Source: Actinomycetota bacterium
Lineage (GTDB): Bacteria; Actinomycetota; Acidimicrobiia; Acidimicrobiales; MedAcidi-G1
Reading direction: 5' to 3'
DNA: 39,035 bases
NCBI GenBank assembly: GCA_014381945.1
Contig: JACNKQ010000045.1
Location: forward strand, 1-39,035
The position numbers and the translations under genes were made by a program. The notes below the pieces were generated by a model. It was not told where the DNA came from. It ran no database searches and saw nothing but the letters and a program-made list of their open reading frames with translations. Every line of letters starts with the position of its first letter. The stretch's first letter is position 1. This document shows, piece after piece, positions 23,185-38,831 of this stretch.

Positions 23185-24540
23185 ATGTCGGCCCCCGTGG
23201 TGGTCGCCGTCGCCCCCGATTCGCCTGCACAGCGGGCCGGGGTCGCGCCCGGTGACCGCATCCTCGCAATCAACGAGCAGGTCCCCCGCGACGTCATCCA
23301 GTACCAGCTGCTGGTCGACGAGCCTTCGCTGCTGCTCGACATCGACCGCGGAGGGCTGAGTCGGGAGGTCGAGGTCGAGAAGGCGGCCGGCGCTCCACTG
23401 GGCATCGAGGTCGACAGCCCGCTGTTCGACCGGGTCCAGACCTGCGACAACCACTGCGAGTTCTGCTTCATCTACCAGTTGCCGCCGGGGATGCGCCGCA
23501 GCCTCTACCTCAAAGACGACGACTACCGCCTGTCGTTCCTGTACGGCAACTTCACGACGCTGACCCGGTTCACCGAGGCCGACCTCGAGCGGGTCGTCAC
23601 CGAGCGGCTCAGCCCGCTCTACGTGAGCATCCACGCCACCGATCCGGGCAAGCGCTCCGAGATGCTGCGCAACCGACGGGGTGGCACCAGCCTGCGTTGG
23701 CTGCGGGTGCTCCTCGACCACGGCATCGAGGTCCACGGCCAGGTGGTGGTGTGCCCCGGCGTGAACGACGGCCTCTGGCTCGAGGACACGCTCGCCGGCG
23801 TCTGCGAGCGGTTCAGCGACCTCGCCAGCCTGTGTGTGGTGCCGCTCGGTGTGAGCCGCCACACCAACGAGGAGCGGATGCGGCCGCACACGGCCGCTGA
23901 GGCGGCGTTTGTGGTCGACACGGTCGAGGCCTGGCAGGGGATCTTCCTCGCCGCCGACGGTCGCCGGATGGTCTTCGCCGCCGACGAGTACTACCTGCTG
24001 GCCGGCCGCGGTTTTCCGCTCGCCGAGGCCTACGAGGGCTTCCCGATGCACGAGGACGGGATCGGCATGGCCCGCTGTTTCGAGATGGACTTCCTGGGTG
24101 GGGGATCCGATGGTCCCGGGCCCCGGGCATCGGGTTTCTTCCAGGCTGTCGACGGGGCTCCGGCTGTGGGCTTCCGGGCGCCCCGCACCGACGGCCGTGT
24201 TCACCTGAGGCCCCGGCGAGACGCCCCGGTCGCAGTGCTGACCGGCGAGCTGGGTGCACCGGTGCTCGGGCCGCTCGTGGACGGCCTGGACCGGCCGGAC
24301 GTGCGCGTGCTGCCGGTGGGGAACAGCTTCTTCGGGGGCAACGTCGGCGTAACCGGGCTTCTCGTCGGCGAGGACCTCGCCCGGGTGCTCGGCGGCGAGC
24401 CGGAGGGCCACCGGTACCTGCTCCCGGATGTCTGCCTCAGCGGAGGCCGGTTCCTCGACGGCCTCACGCCCGACGACCTCCCACGTCCCGTCGAGGTCGT
24501 GGCTACCGACGGGGCTGCGCTCCGGGAGGCGCTGGCATGA
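23185..24540 (+). CDS. PDZ and DUF512 protein, radical-SAM-like
   Basis: 451 aa. Residues ~1-70 are a PDZ-like domain ('APDSPAQRAGVAPGDRILAINEQ'). A cysteine triad 'CDNHCEFCFIYQLP' (CX3CX2C) then begins a radical-SAM-like barrel with 'GNFTTLTRF', 'PLYVSIHATDPGKRSEMLRN' and 'HGQVVVCPGVNDG'. The C-terminal DUF512 part includes 'LVGEDLARVL'. The family is found beside der in many Gram-positive genomes and its reaction is unknown. ATG 23185 starts at the PDZ and follows a TAGCCT box by 7 nt. The long upstream frame is the antisense of ispH. The stop overlaps der by 4 bp. Confidence 0.9.
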   Translation: MSAPVVVAVAPDSPAQRAGVAPGDRILAINEQVPRDVIQYQLLVDEPSLLLDIDRGGLSREVEVEKAAGAPLGIEVDSPLFDRVQTCDNHCEFCFIYQLPPGMRRSLYLKDDDYRLSFLYGNFTTLTRFTEADLERVVTERLSPLYVSIHATDPGKRSEMLRNRRGGTSLRWLRVLLDHGIEVHGQVVVCPGVNDGLWLEDTLAGVCERFSDLASLCVVPLGVSRHTNEERMRPHTAAEAAFVVDTVEAWQGIFLAADGRRMVFAADEYYLLAGRGFPLAEAYEGFPMHEDGIGMARCFEMDFLGGGSDGPGPRASGFFQAVDGAPAVGFRAPRTDGRVHLRPRRDAPVAVLTGELGAPVLGPLVDGLDRPDVRVLPVGNSFFGGNVGVTGLLVGEDLARVLGGEPEGHRYLLPDVCLSGGRFLDGLTPDDLPRPVEVVATDGAALREALA

Positions 24541-25853
24541 GCCCCGTCGTTGCGATCGTCGGGCGGCCCAACGTCGGCAAGTCGACGCTGCTGAACCGGA
24601 TCATCGGCCGGCGCGAGGCGATCGTCGAGGAGCGCCCCGGCGTGACCAGGGACCGCAAGCAGGTCGATGCCTCTTGGCAGGGCCGTCCCTTCACGCTCGT
24701 CGACACCGGTGGCTGGCTGACCGGCGGCGACTCGCTCGACGAGCAGGTCAGCCGGCAGAGCGAGAAGGCGATCGCCGATGCCGATGTCGTGCTGTTCGTG
24801 GTCGATGCGACCGTCGGGGTCACCGAGGACGATGACCGGGTGGCTGCGCTGCTGCGTGGCCGTGCCGATTCCGTGATCGTCGTCGCCAACAAGGTCGACG
24901 ACCGGGTTCACGAGGCGGCCAGCTGGGAGCTGCTCTCACTGGGCCTGGGCGATCCGGTACCGGTCAGCGCCCTGCACGGGCGGGGGACCGGCGACCTGCT
25001 CGACCGCCTGCTCGACATGCTTCCCGAGGAGGCAGCGGCGGGGGACGGGGAACTGTCCGGGAAAGACGAGGAAATCGCGCCGCGGGTGATGGGCGTTTCC
25101 ATCGTCGGGCGTCCGAACGTCGGCAAGTCGACGCTGTTCAACCGCCTCATCGGCGAGGAGCGGGCCGTCGTGCACGACCGCCCCGGCACCACACGCGACT
25201 CGGTCGACACCATCGTCGAGACGGAGCACGGCCCGGTCCGGTTCATCGACACAGCCGGAATGCGTCGCAGGGCGAGGATCGACGAGGACACCGAGTACTA
25301 CTCGCTGGTCCGTGCGCTCAGGTCGGTAGACACATCGGATGTGGCGCTGCTGGTGATCGATGCCACGATCGGCGTCACGCACCAGGACCAGCGCCTCGCA
25401 GAACGGGTCGATGCTGCCGGGTGCCCGATCGTGGTTCTGCTCAACAAGTGGGACCTGTGCGACACCGATCAGCGGGCGGACGTCACCGAACAGGTGGGGC
25501 AGCGCCTCCACTTCGTCGGCGACGCTCCGGTCCTGCGGATCAGCGCCCTGACGGGCAGGAACGTGGGGCGCCTCTGGCCGGCGCTGGCCGAATCGATCGA
25601 GGACTACCGCACTCGGATCCCCACCCGCCGGGTCAACGACGTGGTCCGGGCGGCACAGTCCGAGCACCCGGCGCCCGGGGGTGCACGGGTCCTGTACGCC
25701 ACCCAGGGCGCCACCGACCCGCCGACGTTCACGCTGTTCACCAACCGGGAGCTGCCCAGGACGTGGATGCGCTATCTCGAGCGCCGTCTGCGCGACGACC
25801 TGGGCCTGGGCTCGACGCCCATCAAGCTACGGGTACGTCGCCGTTCGGAATAG
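24537..25853 (+). CDS. der: Ribosome-assembly GTPase Der (EngA)
   Basis: 438 aa with two tandem GTPase domains and a C-terminal KH-like domain, the unique Der layout. P-loops 'GRPNVGKST' are at residues 9-17 and 191-199. G3 motifs are 'DTGGW' and 'DTAGM', and G4 motifs 'NKVD' and 'NKWD'. The KH-like region ends in 'ELPRTWMRYLERRLRDDLGL'. Der acts in 50S subunit maturation in the cytosol. It overlaps the DUF512 gene by 4 bp. The tail after the KH domain is short and basic. Confidence 0.97.
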   Translation: MSPVVAIVGRPNVGKSTLLNRIIGRREAIVEERPGVTRDRKQVDASWQGRPFTLVDTGGWLTGGDSLDEQVSRQSEKAIADADVVLFVVDATVGVTEDDDRVAALLRGRADSVIVVANKVDDRVHEAASWELLSLGLGDPVPVSALHGRGTGDLLDRLLDMLPEEAAAGDGELSGKDEEIAPRVMGVSIVGRPNVGKSTLFNRLIGEERAVVHDRPGTTRDSVDTIVETEHGPVRFIDTAGMRRRARIDEDTEYYSLVRALRSVDTSDVALLVIDATIGVTHQDQRLAERVDAAGCPIVVLLNKWDLCDTDQRADVTEQVGQRLHFVGDAPVLRISALTGRNVGRLWPALAESIEDYRTRIPTRRVNDVVRAAQSEHPAPGGARVLYATQGATDPPTFTLFTNRELPRTWMRYLERRLRDDLGLGSTPIKLRVRRRSE

Positions 25854-25927
25854 GCGGTTTCGGGGGACCTGATCCCGCTGACGGCACGGATTCGACTGCC
25901 CTTCTGGTGGCGGTCCCGGACAGGGGT

Positions 25928-25933
25928 TACGAT
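25928..25933 (+). promoter_or_regulatory. -10 box (TACGAT) of leaderless phosphatase promoter
   Basis: TACGAT ends 8 nt before the ATG at 25942. It is the closest to a sigma-A consensus of the leaderless boxes in the window. Confidence 0.5.
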
Positions 25934-25941
25934 GGGCGCGA

Positions 25942-27015
25942 ATGCGCACTCCGGTACTCACCATCGTGGGCCTCGTGTGCCTGGCAGCCACGTTCAGCTG
26001 GGCACGTTCGGCGCGCCACCGCTATCGGCTGATCCACCGGATCGACGCCGAGGTCTCGCCTGACGCCTACACGCTGGCATGGTCGAACTTCCGCAAGGAG
26101 TCCCACGCAGCGATCCTCTACGGGTTGTTGGCGGTCGCGTCGTTCGTAAACGCCTACTTCGACCCGGCCAGCGTGTCGATCGTGTTCGCCCTCGTCGGCC
26201 TGCCTGCTCTGGTCTCCACGGTCTGGGCGCGCAACGCCGTGCGCGAGGCACGTATGGCACGTCAGAGGATCGACATCGAGCGACGTGCCCAGGAAGCGCT
26301 CGACCAGGAGGACCTGGCCCCCAAGGCGTGGGCGGCCCGCCTCGCCCCCGAGGACCTCCCCGAGTTCTCCGGGTTCGACGTGGGGCGTGTCTACCAGGCG
26401 GGCACCGGCCTCATGGCAGGCGACTTCTTCGACGTGTTCAAGGCGTCGCCGACCCGACTGGCTGCAGTGATCGGCGATGTGTCGGGCCACGATATCGAGG
26501 CGTCCATCACCGCCTTCCAGGCCAAGTACCTGCTGCGGTCGTTCCTCGCCCAGTTCCGCGACCCGGCACAGGCGCTGGAGGAACTCAACCGGCAGATGGC
26601 TTCGGTCGAGCGGGGCGAGGAGTTCATCTCGCTGGTCGTGCTGGTCTTCGACACCGAGGCCGAGACGCTGCGGTATGCATCGGCGGGCCACCCGGCCACG
26701 TTCCTGTTCCACGAGCGTGAGGTGCGCCCGTTGAAGTCGACTGGCCCGTTGCTGATGCTTGATCCGGCCGGCACCTACTTCAGCCGCGAGATCCCGCTCG
26801 AGCGCGACGACATGGCGCTGCTCTACACCGACGGGCTGGCAGAGGCCCGGACCGGAGACGAGCAGTTCGGCGAGCAGCGGATCGGCGATGCCCTGCGTCG
26901 CAACCCTGGCATCGCTCCCGACGTGCTCTGCAAGCAACTTCTCGACTCGGTCAACGACTTCAGCCACGGAATCGTCGAGGACGACATCGCCATCCTGGCG
27001 ATCCGCAAGACCTGA
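25942..27015 (+). CDS. Membrane-anchored PP2C/SpoIIE-type Ser/Thr phosphatase
   Basis: 357 aa. Two or three hydrophobic segments sit in the first ~100 residues ('VLTIVGLVCLAATFSWA', then about residues 55-95), followed by a charged linker helix. The C-terminal ~230 residues are a PPM/SpoIIE phosphatase: 'GDFFDVFKASPTRLAAVIGDVSGHDIEAS' gives two metal-binding Asp sites, 'LRYASAGHPATFLF' and 'DDMALLYTDGLAEARTG' a third, and 'VEDDIAILAIRK' the last. RsbU-like enzymes of this class dephosphorylate anti-sigma-factor antagonists in partner-switching stress responses. No anti-sigma antagonist or kinase gene is adjacent, so the target is unknown. Confidence 0.88.
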   Translation: MRTPVLTIVGLVCLAATFSWARSARHRYRLIHRIDAEVSPDAYTLAWSNFRKESHAAILYGLLAVASFVNAYFDPASVSIVFALVGLPALVSTVWARNAVREARMARQRIDIERRAQEALDQEDLAPKAWAARLAPEDLPEFSGFDVGRVYQAGTGLMAGDFFDVFKASPTRLAAVIGDVSGHDIEASITAFQAKYLLRSFLAQFRDPAQALEELNRQMASVERGEEFISLVVLVFDTEAETLRYASAGHPATFLFHEREVRPLKSTGPLLMLDPAGTYFSREIPLERDDMALLYTDGLAEARTGDEQFGEQRIGDALRRNPGIAPDVLCKQLLDSVNDFSHGIVEDDIAILAIRKT

Positions 27016-27040: not shown

Positions 27041-27253
27041 ATGCCCTGGTGCGCCTCGTGCGACAAGTACCTCAGCCCGAACGCCGTGTCGGTGGTCGGC
27101 ACCTGTCCCACGTGCGGTGACCGGGTCGAGGACTCGGACGGCAGCCCGGCGAGGTCGCAGAAGATCCCGTGGCACTTCTGGGTGTTCGCCTCTGCTGCGG
27201 CGATCTACCTGGCATGGCGCCTCGTCGAGGGCCTCGTCAAGCTGGTGACCTGA
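27041..27253 (+). CDS. Small zinc-ribbon membrane protein; island integration target
   Basis: 70 aa. Two CXXC knuckles, 'CASCDKYL' and 'CPTCGD', form a zinc ribbon in the first ~30 residues. One transmembrane helix follows ('HFWVFASAAAIYLAWRLV'), then a short tail. The function is unknown. It starts 25 bp after the phosphatase gene, in the same direction, and no clear ribosome-binding site is seen. Its last 12 codons plus stop are repeated, almost unchanged, at 34180-34220 on the far side of a ~7-kb island. The gene therefore seems to be the attachment gene, whose 3' end is now supplied by the inserted element. Confidence 0.75.
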   Translation: MPWCASCDKYLSPNAVSVVGTCPTCGDRVEDSDGSPARSQKIPWHFWVFASAAAIYLAWRLVEGLVKLVT

Positions 27254-27255
27254 GG
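27215..27255 (+). repeat. Left copy of 41-bp direct repeat (putative attL)
   Basis: It begins TGGCGCCTCGTCGAGG and covers the last 12 codons and stop of the zinc-ribbon gene, ending TGAGG. It differs from the right copy at three positions: one synonymous change, and two in one codon that switch Lys to Glu. Similarity trails on weakly through TTCAG (27260-27264). Presumed site of integration of the island. Confidence 0.75.
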
Positions 27256-27260
27256 ACCGT

Positions 27261-28028
27261 TCAGCCGAGATCCTCTACCCAGACAAGGACCAGTCGGTCC
27301 GTCAGGGGAGTCGCACCAACGACCAAGTAATCCTCGTGGACGGCGGTGTCAGACAGAGTGACCGACCGTTTGTCGATCACAGTCCGCCACTCAATGGTGA
27401 TTCCTCGTTCTGCAGCAACGACTCGGGTTTCATTCGCTGGATGACCGAGGAGTCGTAGGCCATCAAACGCTTCGCCGGGATCGAATGCGTTTCCCGTAGA
27501 AACGTATGCTTCGCCGTCTCGGGCCGGACGCCCGAGGGTCACCGATGTCGAGCCGCGGTAGTCGAGCGGAATCCGAAGCCCGATCGGGCAATCGGGAGCG
27601 TCGAGGCACGGCCCATCGATCAGGGTGAACAGGCTCGACGTTCCATCATCGACGATCGTGACGATCGTCCCGATCCTGGAAGGTGAAACCGGAACGAGCC
27701 GCAGGCTGATGTCGAGACCGTGTTTCTCGAAGGTGGCGGACAGGCGTGCCCAATCGACGAACGGGTCGGTCACGGTTGCCGTAAGTGAGCCGTTGACTCG
27801 GGCGATCTCGACTCCGGCCGCCGCTGGTGGCTCGTCGAGGACGAGTGTGCTCAGTGCCAGAGCGACGGCGGCGGCGGCGACCAGCATGATGAAACGCTTC
27901 GGTGAACGCCGCTGCGCCGCTCCGTCCGCGATTTCCGAGAGCAACTCCTGCCGCATGCGGCGTTGGCTCTCCGGACTCAGTTCCCTGTCTGGCGGAAGCG
28001 ACCTCGAGAGACAGTTCCAATCGTTCAT
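27261..28028 (-). CDS. Putative anti-sigma factor / single-pass membrane protein
   Basis: 255 aa. The N-terminal ~40 residues are charged and presumably cytoplasmic. One transmembrane helix lies at about residues 46-63 ('FIMLVAAAAVALALSTLVL'), and the remaining ~190 residues would be outside, with a Cys pair in 'GPCLDAPDCPIG'. That is the topology of an ECF anti-sigma factor, but no zinc HXXXCXXC motif is visible, so the role is inferred from its place 70 bp downstream of the sigma gene in the same direction. A GAGGA site precedes the ATG. Its stop lies 8 bp from the left island repeat. Confidence 0.5.
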   Translation of the reverse strand: MNDWNCLSRSLPPDRELSPESQRRMRQELLSEIADGAAQRRSPKRFIMLVAAAAVALALSTLVLDEPPAAAGVEIARVNGSLTATVTDPFVDWARLSATFEKHGLDISLRLVPVSPSRIGTIVTIVDDGTSSLFTLIDGPCLDAPDCPIGLRIPLDYRGSTSVTLGRPARDGEAYVSTGNAFDPGEAFDGLRLLGHPANETRVVAAERGITIEWRTVIDKRSVTLSDTAVHEDYLVVGATPLTDRLVLVWVEDLG

Positions 28029-28098
28029 GCGACGGGGTCCTCAGACGTTCGGCTCGCTTCGACCGGTGATTCGAGCGGCTTGCAGCTCCATACACACG

Positions 28099-28683
28099 CT
28101 ATGTCCACTCCGTGGCTCCAGTTCGATTGCTTCCATAATCCTGCGTACGGAGCCGTTCTCGTGCTCTGGCCAGTCGTGAGCGAACCGTCCCGAGAGGTAT
28201 TCCAAGCACGTCCGCCGCATCCTGGTATGACAGGTCACCAAGGACTACCAGTGCGACCGTGTCGCGTTCGGCGCGGGGCAGTGCCCTGATCTCGGAGAGC
28301 ACCTGCGCCATTTGCCGCTCATCATCGAGGAGCGCTACAAGGTCGTCGGAGGCGTCTACCGGTGGGTTGTAGTGGACTCGGGCGATAGCCGCCTTGAGTC
28401 GTCGCGCGGAGCGCCAATGGTTCCGGGCGTGATTGTGGACGATGCTGAACAGCCAGGGCCGCAGCCTGTCCCCGGCCGGATCAAGTGTTGCGCGGCGGTG
28501 CCAGGCGGTCAGAAATGTCGCTGCGACCAGATCCTCGGCATCCGCCCACGAACCGGTGAGGCGGAACGCGTAGTTGTACACGGCGCCGTTGTATCGATTG
28601 AACAGGACACCGAAGGCGTGTTCATCTCCCAATCGGACACCCGCCCAGATGTCGCTGTCGTGACCTGGGTTCCCGCTAGGCAT
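28099..28683 (-). CDS. ECF-type RNA polymerase sigma factor
   Basis: 194 aa. Region 2 is seen as 'AFGVLFNRYNGAVYNYAFRLTGSWADAEDLVAATFLTAW' spacing with 'LRPWLFSIVHNHARNHWR'. Region 4 has 'ALPRAERDTVALVVLGDLSYQDAADVLGIPLGTVRSRLARARERLR', the HTH that reads the -35 box. An in-frame GTG at 28686 is possible, but ATG 28683 lies 8 nt after a TAGTGT box and is preferred. No extracytoplasmic-stress ligand is evident. It is transcribed away from the lipoprotein-transport operon, and the two may share control. Confidence 0.9.
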   Translation of the reverse strand: MPSGNPGHDSDIWAGVRLGDEHAFGVLFNRYNGAVYNYAFRLTGSWADAEDLVAATFLTAWHRRATLDPAGDRLRPWLFSIVHNHARNHWRSARRLKAAIARVHYNPPVDASDDLVALLDDERQMAQVLSEIRALPRAERDTVALVVLGDLSYQDAADVLGIPLGTVRSRLARARERLRTQDYGSNRTGATEWT

Positions 28684-28691
28684 CACCGGTC

Positions 28692-28697
28692 ACACTA
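28692..28697 (-). promoter_or_regulatory. -10 box (TAGTGT) of leaderless sigma-gene promoter
   Basis: On the minus strand TAGTGT ends 8 nt before ATG 28683. The identical hexamer and spacing occur before scpA and the TPR gene, so the sigma gene appears to be read by the host's main sigma factor. Confidence 0.45.
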
Positions 28698-28914
28698 GGG
28701 CTGGCCCGTTCAAACCGACTAGATGCATCCCGGACCGGCATTCAGCACGTCCAGACCACGGCGAAGTCGGCTTGCGGGATCCCGACGAACCGTCCAAGGA
28801 GATGCGCCCGAGTTCGAAGAATGGACTGGACGGATTGCTCGGCCATTCTGCCACTTTCGCAGATTCACGAACTCACATCGCCAACCGGACATGAGAGAGG
28901 CAGACGGGCCACAG

Positions 28915-29880
28915 ATGCGTACGGGGGTCAGCGAGGTGTCATCGAGGTTGAGGATCTGGTGGGTCTTGGGTTTCGTGTTGGCCGTCGCGGTCGTAGCGGG
29001 TGGTTGTGTCCGACACTCCTCGGGTGAGGGCGATGAGCCAGGCACGATCACGAGCGAAGAACGCACTGCTGATGATGGGTCGTTCGAACCGCTGCTGCTC
29101 CCTTGGGAGCAACAGCGGTTTCTCATCATCGCCGAGGAGACACTGATCTCTCGCTGCATGGGGGAATCCGGATTCGTCTACGAAGTCATCGAACCTCCCC
29201 TGGTGATGCCGGCGCGTGACGCACGCGGGAGGGCGTTCGGATCGGACGATGTAGGAGAGCTCAAGCTTGAGGGTTATGGACTCTCGGCGGCGGCCACCGA
29301 TTCACCGGTTGATGCCAACGCCGTTTATGTGCAGGCGTTGTCGGAGTCCGACCAGGTGCGGTTCGGAAATGCCCTGTTCGGCAGCGACGCAGACGCTCAG
29401 ACGGTCGAGGTCGGTGGTGGGATGGCCCTGTCGATCAGCATGGGGGGGTGTGTCGCCGAGGCGCGGGTGTCGCTGTTCGGTGATCAGGTCGAGTGGATCC
29501 GGCTCTTCTTCAGTATCGAGAACCGTTCCGGCGAAGTGACCAGTCGAGTACTCCAAGACCCCCTCTATATGGCTGCACTGACCAAATGGCAAGCCTGTAT
29601 GGAAAGACGAGGGTTCGCTGTCCGTGACCCGGGATCTGCTCGAGATCTTGCCGCACGCCAGTACAGCCATCTGGATTCGGTCGATGCTGCCGTGGAGGAG
29701 CGACGAATAGCGGCCGCTGACGGCGAATGCGTCGGTGAATCCAAGTTGCTCGAGGCGGCTGTCGGACTTGAAATCAGCTACATGGCCGCGCTGCTCGAGG
29801 AGCGTGCTGGAGAACTGGTCGCGTACCGGGAGTTGTTGGATGGTGCTGTCGATCGCGCAACGGCGGTGCTCGGTGGCTGA
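28915..29880 (+). CDS. Putative lipoprotein of unknown family
   Basis: 321 aa. A lipoprotein signal peptide ends in the lipobox 'VAGGC' (Cys31), after the hydrophobic stretch 'WWVLGFVLAVAVVA'. The mature part has Cys in 'SRCMGESGF', 'MGGCVAEARV', 'KWQACMERRGF' and 'DGECVGE', which could form two disulfides, and a Glu-rich helical C-terminus. Start uncertain: ATG 28915 is taken, while ATG 28891 and GTG 28936 (right before the signal peptide) are also in frame. The longer frame upstream has no support. It is the first gene of the transport operon, so it may be a periplasm-side partner or substrate-binding component. I do not recognise the family. Confidence 0.7.
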   Translation: MRTGVSEVSSRLRIWWVLGFVLAVAVVAGGCVRHSSGEGDEPGTITSEERTADDGSFEPLLLPWEQQRFLIIAEETLISRCMGESGFVYEVIEPPLVMPARDARGRAFGSDDVGELKLEGYGLSAAATDSPVDANAVYVQALSESDQVRFGNALFGSDADAQTVEVGGGMALSISMGGCVAEARVSLFGDQVEWIRLFFSIENRSGEVTSRVLQDPLYMAALTKWQACMERRGFAVRDPGSARDLAARQYSHLDSVDAAVEERRIAAADGECVGESKLLEAAVGLEISYMAALLEERAGELVAYRELLDGAVDRATAVLGG

Positions 29881-31048
29881 CCGGCGCTTCGTCGCTGTCA
29901 TCGGATTGCTAGCCCTTGTCGGAGCTGTTGCGCCCAGCTGGTGGTTGGCGGCTCGAGTTCATGCACCTGCTCGGACCGCGACGGCTGCCTGGACGCCGCC
30001 ACCTGCGATCGTGACGGCAGAAGTCGTGCGCGGACCACTGACAGCGTCCATATTCACCCGCGGGATCGTTGCTGCGCCTGGAGCTGTCGAGGTCGAGGCC
30101 GACCTCCTCGCAGGCGGTTCGCAACCGGTTGTCACCGCCACCCCCTTCGGAGTCGGAGACGAGATCCGCGAAGGCATGGTGGTGCTGGAGGTCTCTGGGC
30201 GACCGCTGATCCTGCTACAGGGTGAACTGCCCATGTGGCGAGACCTGCGCCCGGGGATGCACGGACCCGACGTAGAGCAGCTCAACAAGACTCTTGCCAG
30301 GCTCGGCTTCCTGGGCGAGGTGGCCAGTGCGGATGCCTATGGGCCTGAGACGGCGGGCGCCGTCGGTGCGATGTACGCGAGCGTCGGGTACAGACCGGTA
30401 CTGATCGGGGAGATCGACTCTGCAGGGGTGGGAACCTCCCTTGATCTGCGTGGGCGATCGGGGTCGGGAGAGGCCGTCGATGACGAAGCGATGGTGCTTC
30501 TCAGGTCGGAGATTGTTGTTGTTCCCTCCCCGAGCGCCATCCTGCTCAGCCTCCGCTATTCCAGGGGTGAGTACGTCAGTGGTCACCTGCTGACCGTCGC
30601 ATCGCTGCGTCCGATCGTCGAAGTGCACGTGGCCGAGGATCTTGTGCAGGGACTCGAAGTCGGTGCCAGATCTCGGTTCTGGAGCGAAGCGGTGCCGACG
30701 GTCGTGCACACGGGACGCATCGCCGAGATCCTTCCGGCGCTGACGACCGATCAGAAGACGGGGATAATCGGTCGCCGGGTCATCCTGCAGCCCGACGAGC
30801 CGATACCGGAACATCTGTTCTCAGGGTCTGTCACCGTGTCCGTGGAGACAGCCTCAGTTCCGGAAGCCCTCGTCGTTCCGATGACGGCTGTCAGTTCGGA
30901 TGCAGCCGGCGATACGTACGTGCTTGTCGCAACGGCCGATGGTGATCTTCAGCGTCGCCCAGTCCACGTCGAACTGGTTGCAGATGGTCTGGTTGCCGTC
31001 TCCTCGCCTCAGCTCTCGGAACTGGAGCAGGTGGTGGTGAGCCGATGA
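29873..31048 (+). CDS. HlyD/MacA-like adaptor with peptidoglycan-binding domain
   Basis: 391 aa. An N-terminal transmembrane segment (residues ~7-25) is followed by a beta-rich region ('IVTAEVVRGPLTASIFTRGIV') typical of HlyD/MacA adaptors. A PG_binding_1-like domain lies at residues ~127-172 ('MHGPDVEQLNKTLARLGFLG ... YGPETAGAVGAMY'). The C-terminal barrel ('VVHTGRIAEILPAL', 'VPEALVVPMTAVSSDAAGDTYVLVA') is again adaptor-like. It would link a MacB-type transporter to the cell wall. GTG 29873 overlaps the lipoprotein stop by 8 bp, giving tight coupling, and homology begins here. The stop overlaps the ATPase gene by 4 bp. Confidence 0.8.
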   Translation: MADRRFVAVIGLLALVGAVAPSWWLAARVHAPARTATAAWTPPPAIVTAEVVRGPLTASIFTRGIVAAPGAVEVEADLLAGGSQPVVTATPFGVGDEIREGMVVLEVSGRPLILLQGELPMWRDLRPGMHGPDVEQLNKTLARLGFLGEVASADAYGPETAGAVGAMYASVGYRPVLIGEIDSAGVGTSLDLRGRSGSGEAVDDEAMVLLRSEIVVVPSPSAILLSLRYSRGEYVSGHLLTVASLRPIVEVHVAEDLVQGLEVGARSRFWSEAVPTVVHTGRIAEILPALTTDQKTGIIGRRVILQPDEPIPEHLFSGSVTVSVETASVPEALVVPMTAVSSDAAGDTYVLVATADGDLQRRPVHVELVADGLVAVSSPQLSELEQVVVSR

Positions 31049-31731
31049 CCACCGTCATCTGCCTCCACGGAGTGTCGCGAACCTTCGAGGGTGAACCGCC
31101 AGTCGAGGTACTCGTGAACTGCGATCTCGAGGTCCATGCAGGGGAATCGGTAGCAGTCGTCGGAGCGTCAGGCGCAGGGAAATCGACCCTCCTCAACGTC
31201 CTGGGTCTGCTCGACCGGCCGACGATCGGAAAATACTGGCTCATGGGAAGAGACACGACGGCACTACACGATCATGAGAGGTCACGCTTGCGAGCGCACT
31301 GTGTGAGCTTCGTCTTCCAGGACTCGATCTTGCTACCCCACCAGTCCGTGCAGGAAAACGTGGAACTTGGCCAACTTTACAAAGGCATAGGAAGGCGAGA
31401 GCGCCGCGGTAGAGCACAAGCGGCACTGGAATGGGTCGATCTCGGCCATCGAAGGACGGCGATGCCCTACACCCTTTCAGGGGGTGAACGTCAGCGTGCA
31501 GCGATTGCGAGAGCGCTCGCCACTGTGAACCCGGTGATCCTCTGTGATGAGCCGACTGGCAATCTTGATTCGGTGGCAACCGAGCGCGTTCTTGAACTCC
31601 TCGAGAAGGCCCGGGTTCATCGTGGCGTAACGGTGGTCCTGATTACCCACGACGCCGAAGTAGCAGGTCGCTGCACTCGGCGCGTACACATTCGAGATGG
31701 CCGCCTGATCAACGATGATCGCCGGGAGTGA
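31045..31731 (+). CDS. ABC transporter ATPase, MacB/LolD type
   Basis: 228 aa. Walker A 'GASGAGKST' is at residues 40-48 and the Q-loop in 'FVFQDSILL'. The signature 'LSGGERQRAAIARAL' starts near residue 144, Walker B is 'VILCDEPTGNLDS', and the switch His is in 'VTVVLITHDAEVAG'. 'DEPTGNLD' is characteristic of the LolD/MacB/FtsE class, which couples to FtsX-type permeases and usually acts by mechanotransmission rather than direct transport across the membrane. It overlaps both neighbours by 4 bp. Confidence 0.95.
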   Translation: MTTVICLHGVSRTFEGEPPVEVLVNCDLEVHAGESVAVVGASGAGKSTLLNVLGLLDRPTIGKYWLMGRDTTALHDHERSRLRAHCVSFVFQDSILLPHQSVQENVELGQLYKGIGRRERRGRAQAALEWVDLGHRRTAMPYTLSGGERQRAAIARALATVNPVILCDEPTGNLDSVATERVLELLEKARVHRGVTVVLITHDAEVAGRCTRRVHIRDGRLINDDRRE

Positions 31732-32930
31732 ACTTGGACGGATGCTCATCGACCGTGGCAATTCGCGAGTTGATTGGCGAGGCCATGGCAGGGGTCTGGC
31801 GCCGACCGATGCGATCCGCACTGACGGCAGGCGGCGTGGCGCTTGGTGTAGCCGGGGTCGTCGCGACCATTGGGCTGGCGCTCACGGCGTCAACGCAGGT
31901 CTCGTCGAGCCTTGATCGGCTGAGGGCTACTGAGGTGTCGGTCATCGACATGAGGCCAGAACTCGGTTCTCCGTTCGGTGGCGATCTCCAGAAGCGGCTG
32001 TCCATCCTGAACGGCCTCTTGGCGGGAGGAGAGTGGTGGCGGGCCGAGGATCTTTCGGGGGGCCGAGTGCGCGCGTTGGCGACTGGGCCGGTTGCGGATT
32101 TTCCGGTGGTCGCCGTCGGGCCTGGAGCGCTCGAGGCCATGAGGCCTCAAATGTTCGCAGGTGGCGTGTTCGAGACGTGGCATCACACGGCGGGAGCACC
32201 AGTGGTCCTCCTGGGCTCGGTGGCCGCGACCAAGCTGGGTATCGGCCGTCTCGACGCTCCAACGGCGATCTGGCTCATGGGAAGGCCGTTGACAGTTGTC
32301 GGTGTGATTCAAGATGTCGAGCGCCGTCCAGAAATCCTGCTGGGACTCGTCATCCCGGCATCGCTGCAACTCGTCGGGTGGTCCGGAGGTGCGCACGACA
32401 CCCGTCAACTTCTCATCGAAACCGACCTTGGAGCCGCGAATCTCGTGGGTCGGCAACTCCCGTATGCATTGCTGCCAGCTGAAACGGATCGTCTTTTCGT
32501 CACGGTCCCCCCGGACCCCGTCGGGCTTCGAGAATCCATTCAGTCTGAATTGGTCAGTGTGCTGTTGGCCCTGGCAGCAATGTCCCTGGTGGTTGGAGCC
32601 GGGAGCATCGCTGTCACGGGCCTGGTGAGCGTTGGCGAACGGGCCAGCGAGATCGGCCTCCGTCGTGCCCTCGGGGCTCGTCGTGACCACATCCTCGTTC
32701 AGTTCTTGGTCGAGTCGTCGGTCGTCGGCACTTTCGGAGGCCTCGTCGGCTGTCTCGTTGCCCTCGGCGCTGTCTCGGTGGTGTCGCTCGCTCGTTCCTG
32801 GGTCGTGGCCATCCCTGTGGCGGTCGCACTTGTCGCGCCCCTGGTTGGTACCGCTACCGGACTCGTTGCGGGGATCCAGCCAGCGGTGCGCGCATCTCGC
32901 ATCGAGCCGGTCGAGGCTCTTCGTCGATGA
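31728..32930 (+). CDS. FtsX/MacB-type ABC permease
   Basis: 400 aa. One transmembrane helix near residues 30-52 ('MRSALTAGGVALGVAGVVATIGLALT') is followed by a ~220-residue periplasmic MacB-core domain. A C-terminal three-helix FtsX block then appears, with 'SVGERASEIGLRRALGARRDHILVQFLVESSVVGTFGGLVG' and the final 'PAVRASRIEPVEALRR'. That motif order is diagnostic of MacB-like permeases. With the ATPase, adaptor and lipoprotein it would form an envelope-spanning export or sensing machine. The GTG start overlaps the ATPase stop by 4 bp; the stop overlaps the LuxR gene by 4 bp. Confidence 0.92.
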   Translation: MNLDGCSSTVAIRELIGEAMAGVWRRPMRSALTAGGVALGVAGVVATIGLALTASTQVSSSLDRLRATEVSVIDMRPELGSPFGGDLQKRLSILNGLLAGGEWWRAEDLSGGRVRALATGPVADFPVVAVGPGALEAMRPQMFAGGVFETWHHTAGAPVVLLGSVAATKLGIGRLDAPTAIWLMGRPLTVVGVIQDVERRPEILLGLVIPASLQLVGWSGGAHDTRQLLIETDLGAANLVGRQLPYALLPAETDRLFVTVPPDPVGLRESIQSELVSVLLALAAMSLVVGAGSIAVTGLVSVGERASEIGLRRALGARRDHILVQFLVESSVVGTFGGLVGCLVALGAVSVVSLARSWVVAIPVAVALVAPLVGTATGLVAGIQPAVRASRIEPVEALRR

Positions 32931-33598
32931 GCAGCCAATGGCGGCAATCGTCGGGTGGGCTTCTTGCGCGATCTGTCTCGGGTTGTCTCTTTGGACGCCG
33001 TGTCGGTGTGCTGGTCGCGGCCGATCCGAGGAGGCCCGATGAGCGGATTGCCCAGGATTTGGCAATGGCAACTCTGGCGTACTCACTCCGAGGTGCAGTC
33101 GATGAACGCTGTTCGAGTGAGGTGATGTTCGTAATCGGGATCCGAGACGCTGCGTTCGGCGCCGGTCACGGAGCAGGCATTCCGCCCATTCAGTTGGTTG
33201 GCGATTCCATCGTGGAAACCGCGCTCGCCATTGACAGGTTCGCCCGAGGAGAGGTGTCGTGTGCCCTGTGCTTCACCGATATCGCTGAGCTCCTGTTCGC
33301 TGCTCTGGGGTCGGTGAGCCTTGGCCTTCGGGTTACTTCGCCGCAGGTGACCAGATTGGCTCAGCAGGCCACAGATATCGACCGTCGCCGAATCGCGACG
33401 CTCCACCTTCTTGCCAGCGTTAGGTCCAACGCCTCAATGGCCCGAGACATGAATGTCTCAGTCTCGACGGTCAAGAGAGAGATCGCCGAGTTATTTCGAA
33501 GCTTCGGAGTTGGCTCAAGGGCAGAGCTTGTCGCATACGCGGTCTCAGCGGGACTTGTTGCTCAGACCCATCGATCGGGGGGGGGGGGTGATCAATGA
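32927..33598 (+). CDS. LuxR-type HTH regulator with 3' G-tract
   Basis: 223 aa. The C-terminal ~65 residues are a GerE/LuxR helix-turn-helix ('RRRIATLHLLASVRSNASMARDMNVSVSTVKREIAELFRSFGVGSRAELVAYAV'). Residues ~25-140 look like a receiver-type domain but no clear phospho-Asp pattern is visible, so it may be a pseudo-receiver or ligand-binding domain. It is coupled to the permease by a 4-bp overlap and probably controls the operon. The last codons lie in a run of 12 G (33577-33588). The current frame ends SGGGGDQ. Gain of one G would stop a few codons earlier; loss of one G would extend the protein by about 20 residues. Confidence 0.8.
   Translation: MSSQWRQSSGGLLARSVSGCLFGRRVGVLVAADPRRPDERIAQDLAMATLAYSLRGAVDERCSSEVMFVIGIRDAAFGAGHGAGIPPIQLVGDSIVETALAIDRFARGEVSCALCFTDIAELLFAALGSVSLGLRVTSPQVTRLAQQATDIDRRRIATLHLLASVRSNASMARDMNVSVSTVKREIAELFRSFGVGSRAELVAYAVSAGLVAQTHRSGGGGDQ
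33577..33588 (+). repeat. 12-G homopolymer inside LuxR-type gene
   Basis: Uninterrupted G run, positions 33577-33588, spanning the fifth- and fourth-last codons region of the regulator gene. It is the longest mononucleotide tract in the window, placed so that slippage alters only the C-terminal tail. Confidence 0.9.
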
Positions 33599-33623
33599 CG
33601 CCCCTCCAGAGCCTCGGCGAACC

Positions 33624-33641
33624 TGGCTCACAGTTGAGCCA
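33624..33641 (+). terminator. Hairpin after LuxR gene
   Basis: TGGCTCA (33624-33630), loop CAGT, TGAGCCA (33635-33641): a perfect 7-bp stem 26 bp after the regulator gene. No T-run follows. It may separate the operon from the I36-like gene. Confidence 0.4.
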
Positions 33642-33730
33642 CTTGGGATCTTGTGGTGAACCCATCGGCATCGTCATCCTTGCCTCAAGACAATGCGAAG
33701 GGCACAGGTGCCCGCGCATTGACGGACCAG

Positions 33731-33736
33731 AGGAGG
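33731..33736 (+). promoter_or_regulatory. Strong Shine-Dalgarno of I36-like gene
   Basis: AGGAGG ends 6 nt before the ATG at 33743. It is a perfect site, and it decides the start of the secreted protein gene over upstream in-frame codons. Confidence 0.75.
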
Positions 33737-33742
33737 ATTCAA

Positions 33743-34129
33743 ATGTGGAAGATGCGTTTCACCTGGGTTCGTGTGCTCTCTGTGGCAGCGCTCATTGGCG
33801 TACTGCCCGTCGTCGGACCGCAGGCGGCCAGTGCACATGAGGCGGGTTGGGCGTTTTGTCCATACGGTGCATTGTGCGCCTACTGGGACAGTCACTACAG
33901 CGGCAATCGCTACCAGTTCTTCGGAACCAACTCGAGTTGGCATTCGTGGGGGATCGCAGACGACGATTCATCGTCTCGGAACAATGGTACGACTGGGATG
34001 CGAGCGAGAATATGGGAGCACACGAACTACGGGGGTCGTCAGATCGTCTGTCTGCCGAAGGGCACGAGGGTCGCCCACCACTCGCCGAACGACAAGGGTT
34101 CCTCGAACGATTGGCAGTGGTTCTGCTGA
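33743..34129 (+). CDS. Secreted peptidase-inhibitor-I36 / crystallin-like protein
   Basis: 128 aa. A Sec signal peptide ends at 'QAASA|HE' (cleavage after Ala31), giving a ~97-aa mature protein. It has four cysteines (Cys39, 45, 103, 128), enough for two disulfides. Two beta/gamma-crystallin-like repeats are seen: 'CAYWDSHYSGNRYQFF' and 'RIWEHTNYGGRQIVCL', each with the Y/W...GG/GN..Y pattern, as in the I36 family named after a Streptomyces metalloprotease inhibitor. Other members are uncharacterised secreted proteins. It is not coupled to the upstream operon (144-bp gap, own strong ribosome-binding site), but shares its direction. It could be inhibitor, bacteriocin-like effector or envelope protein; the sequence does not decide. 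Confidence 0.8.
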   Translation: MWKMRFTWVRVLSVAALIGVLPVVGPQAASAHEAGWAFCPYGALCAYWDSHYSGNRYQFFGTNSSWHSWGIADDDSSSRNNGTTGMRARIWEHTNYGGRQIVCLPKGTRVAHHSPNDKGSSNDWQWFC

Positions 34130-34179
34130 GGTCCCGCTGACGTCTGCCCGGGAACAGTTCCGAGATCACAGCACCTACC

Positions 34180-34220
34180 TGGCGCCTCGTCGAGGGGCTC
34201 GTCGAACTGGTGACCTGAGG
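34180..34220 (+). repeat. Right copy of 41-bp direct repeat (putative attR)
   Basis: It matches 27215-27255 with three mismatches and reads in frame as W-R-L-V-E-G-L-V-E-L-V-T-stop, the C-terminus of the zinc-ribbon protein. Here no upstream part of that gene exists. It is probably the displaced host end of the gene. Confidence 0.75.
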
Positions 34221-34225
34221 CGGGT

Positions 34226-35104
34226 TCAGCGCCAGGGGGAGACCGCCTTTTCGGCGATCGGGAAGATCAGCTCGTCGGCGCCGACGTCTTCGGCAGCCGC
34301 CGACCGCTCGTTGTCGGAAAGCGGGGTGTAGCCGGCTGCTGCGGCGATGGCTCGTCGTGCCGTGGCGGGGTCGCTGGGGGTGCAGAAGGCGTGGACGCCG
34401 GGGGTCGACAGTGCGAACCGGACGCCGCGCCCGATGCCCTCGTCGGTGCGCTGGGGTTCGTACCAGGTCATGGCGTCGGGCCGGCGGTCGCCCCAGGGCC
34501 GCCACGCAACGGCCTTGATGGCCATGACGCCGACATCGCGGGCGGCGCATTCGGTCAGGAGCGCCTCGGCGTCGGCCCGGTAGACGGGGTCGGCCCAGAC
34601 CCGGGGATACACGGGGAACATGACCGTGTCGACGTCGTAGCGGCGGATGGCCTCGAGGTGGGCCCGGGGGGCGCCGAGGTCGTGGCCGGTGATGCCGATG
34701 AACCGGGTCAGGCCCTGGTCGCGTGCGTCGATGATCACCTCGAAGGCCTCGGCCCTGCGGTCCAATTCGTCGATCGAGGTGACCCCGTGGGCCTGGTAGA
34801 GGTCGAGGTGGTCGATCTGGAGGCGGGTGAGCGTCTTGTCGAGGCGCTGCTGCGCCCAGCTGCGCTCGGTCTCGCCGGTCTTTCCGGCGAGGAACAGCCG
34901 GTTGCGAAGCGCCGGCAGGTGGGGCCCGACGGCCCGTTCGGCGAGTCCGTAGCCGGGGGCGATGTCGAGGTGGTTGACGCCGGCGTCGATGGCCCCGGCC
35001 ATGAACGGCCCGGCGTCCTCGGGGGAGTCGGTGGCGAAGGCGGCGCCACCCAGGATGGCGACGCTGCTGTGGTGCCCGGTGCGCCCCAGCCGTCGGGTCT
35101 CCAT
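34226..35104 (-). CDS. Aldo/keto reductase
   Basis: 292 aa. The catalytic tetrad is readable: Asp and Tyr in 'NHLDIAPGYGLAE', Lys in 'LFLAGKTGE' and His in 'DLYQAHGV'. Other AKR stretches are 'LGRTGHHSSVAILGGAAF' and 'GITGHD'. Such enzymes reduce carbonyls with NADPH; the substrate is unknown. ATG 35104 is preferred and GTG 35125 is an alternative. The still longer frame runs into the antisense of tRNA-Pro and is certainly wrong. Codon use is back to the host's high-GC type. Its stop is 5 bp from the right island repeat, so it was probably the original convergent neighbour of the zinc-ribbon gene. Confidence 0.88.
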   Translation of the reverse strand: METRRLGRTGHHSSVAILGGAAFATDSPEDAGPFMAGAIDAGVNHLDIAPGYGLAERAVGPHLPALRNRLFLAGKTGETERSWAQQRLDKTLTRLQIDHLDLYQAHGVTSIDELDRRAEAFEVIIDARDQGLTRFIGITGHDLGAPRAHLEAIRRYDVDTVMFPVYPRVWADPVYRADAEALLTECAARDVGVMAIKAVAWRPWGDRRPDAMTWYEPQRTDEGIGRGVRFALSTPGVHAFCTPSDPATARRAIAAAAGYTPLSDNERSAAAEDVGADELIFPIAEKAVSPWR

Positions 35105-35196: not shown

Positions 35197-35271
35197 CGGG
35201 CTGTGGCGCAGCTTGGTTAGCGCGTCGGTCTGGGGGACCGAAGGTCGGAGGTTCAAATCCTCTCAGCCCGA
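35197..35271 (+). tRNA. tRNA-Pro (anticodon GGG)
   Basis: 75 nt without encoded CCA. The acceptor stem is CGGGCTG with CAGCCCG and discriminator A. The D arm is GCGC...GCGC-type, and the anticodon stem-loop is TCGGT-CTGGGGG-ACCGA, giving anticodon GGG (reads CCC and CCU). The T arm GGAGG-TTCAAAT-CCTCT has one G-T pair. The tRNA 3' end abuts a tyrosine recombinase gene, the usual integration arrangement. Confidence 0.93.
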
Positions 35272-35276
35272 CAAAC

Positions 35277-35318: not shown

Positions 35319-36449
35319 CTAGGCTGACAGCGGGAGTTCTCTCAGGCCGCGTACAGGCCGCGAGATTTCGGAAATGGCCTTCTGGTACTGCGTCTCCAGC
35401 CCGTCGGTCAACGCTTCGTCGAGAGCGGGGAACAGGTGCCCGTACGTGTCGAGGGTGACTTTGATTGATGAGTGGCCGAGGCGCTCCATGATTGCTCTCG
35501 GGTGAGCCGCATCAGAAATTAGCATCGCGGCGCAGGTGTGGCGAAGGTCATGGAATCTGAATCCGTCTAACCCGAAGTCCTCTACTGCAGGTTTGAAGTA
35601 GCGCCTGTAGAAGTTCGAATGGCGAAGCACCGAGCCATTTGGGGATGTGAACACAAGTGCCGTCTGGTCCCGTGCGGCGCCCCGTCCCTCAAGGTGGGTG
35701 GCAAGTAGGTCGCGGAGGAAGGTGGGGATCGACACTGACCTAGTTCGATGGTTCTTGGTGTCAGTGAACAGTGCTTCGCCACGAACCTCTGAGACCGACT
35801 GCCGCACCGTCAGACGGCCCCTGAGCAGGTTCAGGTCACCTACCCGCAGAGCAGCACATTCGCCCGCTCTAAGGCCCGTAAACGCCGCAAAGAGGACAAG
35901 CAGACCCGATTCCGCGTCCATGGTCTTAGCGAGAGCAGTAATAGTCTCTGCTGACTCAAACTTGGCTACAGATGACGCAGCGACCTTCGGAGACTTCACA
36001 TCCCGGGCGGGGCTGGTTACGAGTGCTCCGTCTCGGACTGCGAGATCAAGGATCGGACGCAACACGTTGAGAGCGTTCTTGACTGTCTGTGGCGACCGGC
36101 CAGCGTTCAACATCTCGGCTTTGAACCTCTCGATCGTTGACCAAGAGATCTTCTCGACAGGCCGATTACCAAATGTTGGCATAATCCATCGTTCCAGAAT
36201 CGACTCGTAACCGGCACGCGTCTTTGGCTTGCAGTCCAGCGTTGACATCCTGATCGCCGCGTACTCAGAGAATAGTTGTCGCCCACGATCTGGCGAGACC
36301 CATGTCCCTCGGGCCATATCAGTCTCAACACTGGCAGCAAACCGGTCTGCATCGTTCTTCTTCTTGAAGGTCTTTGATCGTTCCTTGTTGTCTGGGTCCC
36401 GGTACCGGACCCGGTATCTTCCGGGCGAGCGTTTTTGAACATGCGCCAT
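35319..36449 (-). CDS. int: Tyrosine recombinase (phage/ICE-type integrase)
   Basis: 376 aa. It has an N-terminal AP2-like arm-binding region ('GRYRVRYRDPDNKERSKTF') and a SAM-like core-binding domain at ~60-150. The catalytic domain carries Arg194 ('FTGLRAGE'), Lys232 ('TDTKNHRTR'), His300 and Arg303 ('FHDLRHT'), His326 ('LGHSS') and the nucleophile Tyr336 ('DTYGH'). All active-site residues are intact. Base composition is clearly lower in GC than the backbone. It ends 48 bp from the 3' end of tRNA-Pro, its likely attachment site. Its ribosome-binding site (AAGGAG) is formed right at the edge of the IS21 element, which has separated the gene from its former upstream DNA. Confidence 0.93.
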   Translation of the reverse strand: MAHVQKRSPGRYRVRYRDPDNKERSKTFKKKNDADRFAASVETDMARGTWVSPDRGRQLFSEYAAIRMSTLDCKPKTRAGYESILERWIMPTFGNRPVEKISWSTIERFKAEMLNAGRSPQTVKNALNVLRPILDLAVRDGALVTSPARDVKSPKVAASSVAKFESAETITALAKTMDAESGLLVLFAAFTGLRAGECAALRVGDLNLLRGRLTVRQSVSEVRGEALFTDTKNHRTRSVSIPTFLRDLLATHLEGRGAARDQTALVFTSPNGSVLRHSNFYRRYFKPAVEDFGLDGFRFHDLRHTCAAMLISDAAHPRAIMERLGHSSIKVTLDTYGHLFPALDEALTDGLETQYQKAISEISRPVRGLRELPLSA

Positions 36450-36522: not shown

Positions 36523-37335
36523 TCAGTCTGGCGTAGGGGCCGTGGTGTTGGCCAGTGTTTCGGGGTGGCGCGTGCGGCGGGTGCGGGTCTTCGCGTCGTG
36601 TAGCCGGTAGGACTCGCCTTTGGTTTCGATGATCCGGCAGCGGTGGGTGAGCCGGTCGAGGGTGGCGCCGGTGAGGCGTTCGGAGCCGAGGACTTCGGTC
36701 CACGACTCGAACGGCAGGTTGGTCGTGACGATCATCGAGGTGCGCTCGTACGCGGTCGAGATCACGTCGAAGAGCAGCTCGGCGCCGACCTTGGACGCGG
36801 GCACGTAGCCCAGCTCGTCCAGCACGAGGAGGTCCAGTTTGGCGAGCTGGTTCTTGACTCGGAGGAAGGTGCGTTCGTCGCGGGCTTCGATGAGGGTGGT
36901 GATGAGTTCGGTGGCCCGGAAGAACCGCACCTTGTAGCCGCGCCCGCATGCTGCTGCGGCGAGCGCGGTGGCGAGGTGACTCTTGCCGGTGCCGGGGTTG
37001 CCGACCAGCAGCACGTTCTCGCGTTTGTCGATGAAGTCGCAGCGGGCCAGTTCGGTGATGAGCATTTTGTTGACGGAGGGTCGGGCGGTGAAGTCGAACG
37101 TGTCGAGCGACTTGAACGTCGGGAACCGGGCGGCCTTGAGCCGTCGCTCCGCGGCGCGCTTCTCCCGCTCGAGCAGCTCCAACTCGCAGAGCCGCAGGAG
37201 GTAGGTGAGGTGGTCGGCGTTGTCGGTCGCTGCTTGGGCGGCGACCTTCTCGGCCTCGGCGCCGATGGTTGGCAGGCGCAGCGCTTTGAGGTGGTGGTGC
37301 AGCAGCACCATCGATTTCGTTTCGAGGGTCTTCAT
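36523..37335 (-). CDS. istB: IS21-family helper ATPase IstB
   Basis: 270 aa, AAA+ ATPase of the DnaC-like clade that selects target DNA and stimulates the transposase. Walker A 'GNPGTGKSH' is at residues 112-120, Walker B 'LDLLVLDELGYVP', and sensor region 'MIVTTNLPFESWTEVLGS'. The N-terminal helical domain ('HLKALRLPTIG') is the family's oligomerisation part. The ATG overlaps the istA stop by 4 bp, the standard IS21 arrangement. Intact. Confidence 0.95.
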   Translation of the reverse strand: MKTLETKSMVLLHHHLKALRLPTIGAEAEKVAAQAATDNADHLTYLLRLCELELLEREKRAAERRLKAARFPTFKSLDTFDFTARPSVNKMLITELARCDFIDKRENVLLVGNPGTGKSHLATALAAAACGRGYKVRFFRATELITTLIEARDERTFLRVKNQLAKLDLLVLDELGYVPASKVGAELLFDVISTAYERTSMIVTTNLPFESWTEVLGSERLTGATLDRLTHRCRIIETKGESYRLHDAKTRTRRTRHPETLANTTAPTPD

Positions 37336-38831
37336 GCGGTGTCTCCTATGGGTGTCAGGGCGCGGTATGCGCCGAGATCGATGGCGTCAACGACGACGCT
37401 CTTGAGATGGGGGTGGCCGTCGAGGCTGAATAGTCCGACGGGGCGTTCTTGGGAGTGCGCCAGGATCAGGCCGACGGCGTCCGCGCCGGTCGCCCCGATC
37501 CTCAGCGCTTGGCCAACAGCACTGGTGAGCTCACGCAGCGACGCTCGTTCCATGAGGCGCAGCACCTTGATGAACTCGCGTGTGCCGCCCGAGGCGAGGT
37601 CGGCTTCGAGGCGTCGGCGCAACAACGCGAAACACGGGGGCAGGTCCCAGTCTTCGAGGGGCCGGGCGGCGTCGAGGGCGCCTGGCTTACGTTCCAACAG
37701 GGCCAGGTAGTGCACCGGGTTGAAGAAGACCCGTTCCCGTCCCCAGTGACGCAGGTGGGTTGCGACGATCTGGGGGCCCGCCGCGATGGTGAGGTGGTCG
37801 ACGCCACCCAGCACGGTGAGGTCGTGGTGCGCGTACGCGGTCGGCACCGAGTAGTCGTTGCGGTCGAACCGCACCAGCGACAACGTGTTCGCCCGGCGCT
37901 GCTCGACCCGGCGCGCTTCGAACGACTCGGCCGGCAACGCCAACATCGCGGCCAGGTCCTCGGCGAGACGTTCGCGTTTCGTCGTGCCCTTGCCCCGCAC
38001 CCGCCGGTCCAAGTCGGCGTCGCAACGCCGAGCAAGATGGGCGTTGAGGTCGGCGAACGTGTCGAACGCTGGGACCGGGACCAGAAAGTTCCGGCGCCCG
38101 AACCCGACGAGGTTCTCGACGTGGCCCTTCTCGTTGCCCCGAGCCACCCGGCAGAACCGATGCGTGAACAGGTAGTGCGATTCGAGGCGTAGGAACTCGC
38201 GGGTCAACTGCCGTTGCGATCCGCCCATCACCTTCGACACGGCGATCGTCGTGTTGTCATACGCGGTCTTCGTCGGGACACCACCGAAGTACTCGAAGCC
38301 CGACACGTGGCCCTGCTGGAACGTCTCGGTGCACTCACGCGGATACGCCGACACGAAGAACGCGTCGGAGTACGGCAAGCTCATCACTGCCAACGCCGCC
38401 TTCATCCGTTCGCCGGCGATCTCGACGGTCGCTTCACCGAAATCGAACTGGGCTTCGCCGGGCGGATGCGACAACGGCACGAACACCTCCGCCTGCGTCC
38501 GCCGGCGCTCGGCGATGTAACGGCGGACTTGGACCTCGCTGCCCGAATAGCCGTGCTCGTCGCGCAGCCGCTCGAAGACCCGCTTCGCCGTGTGACGTTG
38601 CTTGCGCGGTGTCGACGGGTCAGCGTCGGTCGCCAGGATCTCGTCGATCACACCGGTGAACGGACCCAGCTTCGGTCTCGGCCGCTGCCCCGTTGACCGA
38701 TAGCCCGGCGGCTCAGCGTGGGTGAGGATCTTCTCGAGCGTCTCCGACCCCAGCCCGTACTCGCGACGCGCCGCCCGTTTCGACAGGCCCTCGACGAGCA
38801 CCCTGCGCCGGACCTCTGTCCACATCTCCAT
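37332..38831 (-). CDS. istA: IS21-family transposase IstA
   Basis: 499 aa. It has an N-terminal HTH ('GLSKRAARREYGLGSETLEKIL') and an RNase-H-fold core with probable DDE residues Asp130 ('QFDFGEA'), Asp192 ('TAYDNTT') and Glu239 ('GNEKGHVEN'). A C-terminal beta-barrel-like domain follows ('VRFDRNDYSVPTAYAHHDLTV'). The frame is open back to a TTG at 38879, but ATG 38831 is taken as start because a GGGGGAAGG run lies shortly before it and the family begins near 'MWTEVRR'. A GTG at 38843 is also possible. Complete and probably functional. Confidence 0.92.
   Translation of the reverse strand: MEMWTEVRRRVLVEGLSKRAARREYGLGSETLEKILTHAEPPGYRSTGQRPRPKLGPFTGVIDEILATDADPSTPRKQRHTAKRVFERLRDEHGYSGSEVQVRRYIAERRRTQAEVFVPLSHPPGEAQFDFGEATVEIAGERMKAALAVMSLPYSDAFFVSAYPRECTETFQQGHVSGFEYFGGVPTKTAYDNTTIAVSKVMGGSQRQLTREFLRLESHYLFTHRFCRVARGNEKGHVENLVGFGRRNFLVPVPAFDTFADLNAHLARRCDADLDRRVRGKGTTKRERLAEDLAAMLALPAESFEARRVEQRRANTLSLVRFDRNDYSVPTAYAHHDLTVLGGVDHLTIAAGPQIVATHLRHWGRERVFFNPVHYLALLERKPGALDAARPLEDWDLPPCFALLRRRLEADLASGGTREFIKVLRLMERASLRELTSAVGQALRIGATGADAVGLILAHSQERPVGLFSLDGHPHLKSVVVDAIDLGAYRALTPIGDTA

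Follow-up and report, generated by a model that had tools for sequence, protein, structure and literature searches.

A segment of about 6.9-7 kb in the analysed DNA, a 39,035-nucleotide contig of an Acidimicrobiales genome (G000; the whole contig is hereafter called the window), is foreign to its host and lies between two copies of the 3' end of a small zinc-ribbon gene (ZR). It was placed there by one insertion between ZR and an aldo/keto reductase gene (AKR), which duplicated the gene end, removed no host DNA and preserved the ZR reading frame. An earlier note on this DNA had read the locus as site-specific integration into the ZR 3' end with reconstitution of the C-terminus. Comparison with empty sites upheld the insertion, the duplication of the end and the intact frame. 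Support for the action of an integrase was only partial, as neither a recombinase nor reuse of the site was found. The explanation that we favour, at roughly even odds (about 0.5), is that a foreign island was inserted once at the ZR end by a site-specific recombinase, which has since been lost or acts in trans. The features of the locus are as follows.

27041..27253, plus strand: ZR, zinc-ribbon gene of 70 aa, the host target, intact, ending in the left repeat copy
27215..27265, plus strand: left repeat copy, attL-like; the 3'-terminal 12 codons of ZR, its stop and a further 12 bp
27261..28028, minus strand: probable anti-sigma factor, downstream of the sigma gene; one transmembrane segment by eye
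28099..28686, minus strand: ECF sigma factor; Sigma70_r2 and Sigma70_r4_2 (Pfam)
28915..29880, plus strand: lipoprotein-like gene; lipobox by eye, start picked by eye before the signal peptide
29873..31048 (start approximate), plus strand: membrane-fusion protein; PG_binding_1, HlyD_D23, RND_mfp
31045..31731, plus strand: ABC ATPase of the MacB/LolD type, from profile matches
31728..32930, plus strand: FtsX/MacB-type permease; closest relatives ~43% identical, outside the host's family
32927..33598, plus strand: LuxR-type regulator with NarL-like HTH; GerE
33743..34129, plus strand: small secreted I36-inhibitor/crystallin-like protein; Inhibitor_I36, 1.7e-10
34180..34230, plus strand: right repeat copy, orphan ZR gene end, attR-like; its first 41 bp end 5 bp from the AKR stop
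34226..35104, minus strand: AKR, aldo/keto reductase, host neighbour; Aldo_ket_red

Pairwise alignment of 27215-27265 with 34180-34230 gave a direct repeat of 51 bp with 88% identity. In agreement with the earlier note, the first 41 bp (27215-27255 and 34180-34220) differ at three positions only. This is the sole pair of 41-mers with at most three mismatches across the 39-kb window; shuffling the 8.4-kb region 20 times under a first-order Markov model produced no repeat of this kind, and the local alignment score was 72, whereas 111-bp windows paired at random reached 37 at most. The two copies translate as W-R-L-V-E-G-L-V-(K/E)-L-V-T-stop, the C-terminal 12 residues encoded by ZR and its stop; of the two, the left copy alone is continuous with the 70-aa gene, so that the reading of the two copies given previously was confirmed. 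The same holds for the differences described between them, one of which is synonymous (GGC/GGG) while the other two fall in a single Lys/Glu codon (AAG/GAA), and for the position of AKR, the stop codon of which starts 5 bp beyond the right 41-bp copy.

The similarity between the copies extends past the ZR stop and through the spacer to the motif GTTCAGC. On each side GTTCAGC/TTCAGC holds the stop codon of the convergent gene, that of the anti-sigma-like gene on the left (27261-27263) and that of AKR on the right, and hence the anti-sigma-like gene terminates within the repeat. Since the similarity reaches the AKR stop, the duplicated stretch seems to have been copied from a ZR-AKR junction and not just from the gene end. 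The longest identical run between the copies is 17 bp, which makes it unlikely that they result from k-mer assembly collapse or a mis-join. The copies have diverged by 12% over 51 bp, a distance similar to that between two species of the genus. The two inner ends of the island share no short repeats (9-12 bp) that could represent arm sites.

The state of the locus before the insertion is seen in two genomes of the same genus, in which ZR and AKR are direct neighbours, as the earlier note had predicted. In G003:C27 (JARQPW010000033.1) ZR is located at 1900-2106(-) and AKR at 1009-1884(+); in G004:C70 (DCXR01000024.1, labelled Candidatus Microthrix sp. UBA2131) they are located at 1126-1335(-) and 230-1105(+), respectively. 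Each of these empty sites contains a single gene end, and the distance from the ZR stop to the AKR stop is ~10-20 bp. In BLAST comparisons with both genomes, positions 25900-27255/27265 of the window join 34180-35104/35272, and no host DNA is missing. Together, the adjacency, the single gene end and the absence of host loss indicate that the segment entered between ZR and AKR, with duplication of the end.

Orthologues of ZR were present in 46 of the 61 genomes searched, its own genome counted; the match of ZR to HVO_2753_ZBP (Pfam) is weak and below cutoff. In several other genera of the family a tRNA-Pro gene lies within ~100 bp of the ZR stop, and AKR occupies the interval between the two in some lineages only. 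This lineage dependence indicates that the interval is a place of gene turnover. G002 displays a third state (L146, G002:C23:1-330), in which AKR is absent and a short unrelated stretch separates ZR from the tRNA-Pro region; this stretch contains a minus-strand ORF of ~38 aa.

The composition of the segment also differs from that of its surroundings. A check of GC content and codon bias, proposed earlier, gave 62.3% GC for the island versus 69.4% for the left flank and 71.8% across AKR, and a GC3 of 0.62-0.71 for the island genes versus 0.88-0.93 for SpoIIE, ZR and AKR. Within the host's family no relative of the permease exceeds ~33% identity; the best matches, of 38-43%, come from other families of the order. 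Thus, in the permease search, cargo of comparable identity was not found in the host's genus or family, and with the sites in G003 and G004 empty there is no sign of close relatives that all carry the same cargo at this place, the observation that would have spoken against an insertion. The host species is represented by one genome in the comparison.

The exporter core keeps its gene order in other families and on Streptomyces plasmids; in three of the cases from other families (G117, G123 and G052), a lipoprotein-like gene of weak similarity lies close by. No Pfam family was found for the probable anti-sigma factor; its homologues adjoin ECF sigma genes in G212 and G345. In G212 (L141, 6731-8549) relatives of the sigma, anti-sigma and LuxR genes are adjacent to each other, beside a gene for a small secreted protein. 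In G345 the sigma and anti-sigma genes are adjacent on one contig, and the LuxR gene lies beside a small secreted protein gene on another. The LuxR-type regulator had a match in only 3 other genomes out of 396. As exporter core and sigma/LuxR cluster each recur elsewhere, the island joins two recurrent modules. It probably serves to export a cell-envelope-active substrate or to respond to such a substrate or to stress from it.

The recurrence of ECF sigma, anti-sigma, LuxR and a small secreted protein without Pfam family as neighbours (L141:6073-8570 in G212:C10; L142 and L143 in G345) was an observation made in passing. The cluster in G212 has no exporter, and the neighbourhood, found in other families of the order, is a possible uncharacterised regulatory module.

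Two other views of the island's nature were rejected. A phage, plasmid or viral origin was dropped, as there was no phage DNA match and no viral contig with the gene end; permease matches on plasmids, mostly of Streptomyces, are at most ~42% identical. A defence island was also discarded, PADLOC having returned generic ATPase/permease matches only.

All sizeable ORFs between the repeats were assigned in searches against Pfam, NCBIfam and PHROGs, and none of them is a gene for an integrase, an excisionase or mobilisation. The own integrase that marks an autonomous ICE, IME or prophage is thus missing. Reuse of the site was addressed with a degenerate pattern of the ZR gene end, which was run against 47 other genomes of the family and gave 0 matches in a reversed control. 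G000 has two occurrences of the pattern, and the 32 other family genomes with a match have one apiece, so that no second gene end was present in these 32 genomes. A narrower, genus-type pattern detected no viral contig with the ZR gene end. The search for this end beside other cargo, which the earlier note had proposed, was therefore negative in the 32 matching genomes and in viral contigs, and no recombinase-bearing element for the same attachment site was found among the 47 genomes and the viral contigs. These sequence searches give no indication that elements commonly attach at the ZR gene end.

According to the favoured explanation, a foreign cargo island of ~6.97 kb entered once between ZR and AKR, with the crossover falling within the last 12 ZR codons. 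The ZR reading frame was kept whole, and an orphan gene end remained at the right border. The crossover would have been made by a site-specific recombinase, the gene for which has since been lost from the island or is supplied in trans. The present state would be that of a CIME-like, non-autonomous island, either decayed or trans-mobilised. Its cargo consists of an exporter operon (lipoprotein, membrane-fusion protein, ABC ATPase and FtsX permease) together with a module of ECF sigma factor, anti-sigma factor, LuxR-type regulator and secreted I36-like protein. We infer a recombinase because a repeat of 41-51 bp over the 3' end of a gene, with the gene restored, is the usual outcome of its action; elements that use tyrosine recombinases have direct repeats of 8-60 bp, with the end of the target gene inside one repeat (PMC5704250). 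The lack of recombinase, excisionase and mobilisation genes, the gene end that is not reused and the 12% divergence of the copies count against this explanation.

The main rival is a serious explanation that we hold possible but tentative. It supposes homology-facilitated one-sided recombination with a related donor that already carried the cargo behind ZR. The left crossover would be homologous, in or upstream of ZR, and the right one illegitimate, inside the recipient ZR, the last 41 bp of which would become the orphan copy; no integrase is needed. This would explain an island devoid of a recombinase and copies that differ like alleles of two species, as well as the closeness of the right copy to G002, with which it shares 38 of 39 positions of the gene end. 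Such recombination (HFIR) is documented (PMC3240628), and integrase-free hotspots in which the core genes on either side mediate the exchange of DNA are common (PMC5635113). However, the repeat spans the gene end and the spacer up to the AKR stop, which would require extra coincidences, the donor arrangement was not found in the relatives searched, and the flanks (26.6-27.25 kb and AKR) show ordinary relatedness versus the rest of the genome.

The relatedness of the flanks deserves closer description. The site patterns of G000, G004 and G003 change from 757/335/385 to 69/82/70 at ~26.6 kb (p=2e-8). A recombination tract bracketing the island was considered and dropped: at two control loci the three genomes are about equidistant, as they are beside the island, which places the anomaly at 17.4-26.2 kb rather than in the flanks of the island. 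Compared with these two other loci, no signal of homologous replacement was found in the immediate flanks, at 26.6-27.25 kb and in AKR. At 17400-26200, G000 is closer to G004 (~0.90) than to G003 (~0.85), probably because DNA was exchanged here between species by homologous recombination, over a tract that ends near 26.6 kb.

The polarity of the three variable sites is ambiguous, so that either copy may be the native one. By eye, the left copy is identical to the gene end of G002 at 36 of 39 positions; the variable Lys/Glu codon is AAA (Lys) in G003 and GAG (Glu) in G004. It is plausible on these alignments, as had been suggested, that the element brought the left gene end from a related host.

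Returning to site-specific recombination, a more specific possibility is that the ZR 3' end would be the dedicated attachment site of an undescribed recombinase of Acidimicrobiales elements, and the island a satellite moved in trans; this seems unlikely. We regard as improbable an insertion by replication or end joining that duplicated a target of ~50 bp, the copies of which diverged later. A perfect duplication since diverged would yield the same map, again with no recombinase required. Yet the 12% divergence equals the between-species level while the sister species are without the island, and a non-coding copy should have decayed, whereas the orphan copy is nearly identical to the G002 gene end. 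Finally, mobilisation of the island through a secondary site by the tyrosine integrase next to tRNA-Pro, the sole integrase nearby and one with relatives beside ZR-tRNA-Pro in other genera, is very improbable, because the repeat and the tRNA-Pro 3' end do not align significantly (best score 19, with 20 as the 95th percentile for random windows) and the enzyme abuts its own tRNA target.

That integrase, at 35319-36449(-), lies ~1.1 kb to the right of the island and abuts tRNA-Pro(GGG) (35197-35272). Integrases 75-94% identical to it over the matched part are located beside ZR-tRNA-Pro in G010 (L053), G063 (L124) and G069 (L119), which indicates that this is a separate, recurrent site. A distant integrase (30%) is present at the same locus in G071 (L125), and several contigs break at or near tRNA-Pro. 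The tRNA-Pro gene is an integration hotspot of the host family. Directly upstream of the integrase is an IS21-like istA/istB pair (36523-38879), which possibly separates the integrase from its own promoter; the contig ends at 39035. A third remnant of the ZR end between AKR and tRNA-Pro was also considered and rejected (score 20, 95th percentile 21; absent in G003 and G004).

Among known systems, the island is anatomically closest to a cis-mobilizable element (CIME; PMC5704250). Like a CIME, it lacks integration and transfer genes and has att-like repeats at a gene 3' end, one of them in the end of the target gene (the 51-bp repeat of 88% identity, the att function of which is putative). It differs in having no known parent ICE or IME of the same attachment site; any mobilisation in trans is hypothetical, and the target gene is unreported in the literature searched. 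It also resembles SCCmec/ECC at the rlmH 3' end (PMC6222049), where direct repeats of ~50 bp flank the element and a small conserved coding gene stays whole. These elements, however, encode serine recombinases (ccr) with a conserved core motif and are found repeatedly at their site, whereas the island has no recombinase, a single occurrence and ZR as its target, and is not a member of that group. Variable cargo between core genes is a feature that it shares with the integrase-free hotspots whose content turns over through homologous recombination in the neighbouring core genes (PMC5635113); it differs from them by its duplicated gene end and by immediate flanks that are free of a recombination signal. 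It is thus a genomic island of known kind, at a gene seen as target in no other relative searched.

The locus provides a foreign exporter/regulator island at the end of a protein-coding gene, with empty sites for comparison, in a little-studied actinobacterial lineage. It lies beside the integration hotspot at tRNA-Pro. Should there be an integrase that uses the ZR gene end, this end would be a new attachment site that is not a tRNA gene. If there is no such integrase, the island would be a clean case of gene-end duplication without an integrase, and would call for caution in taking att-like repeats as proof of integrase action.
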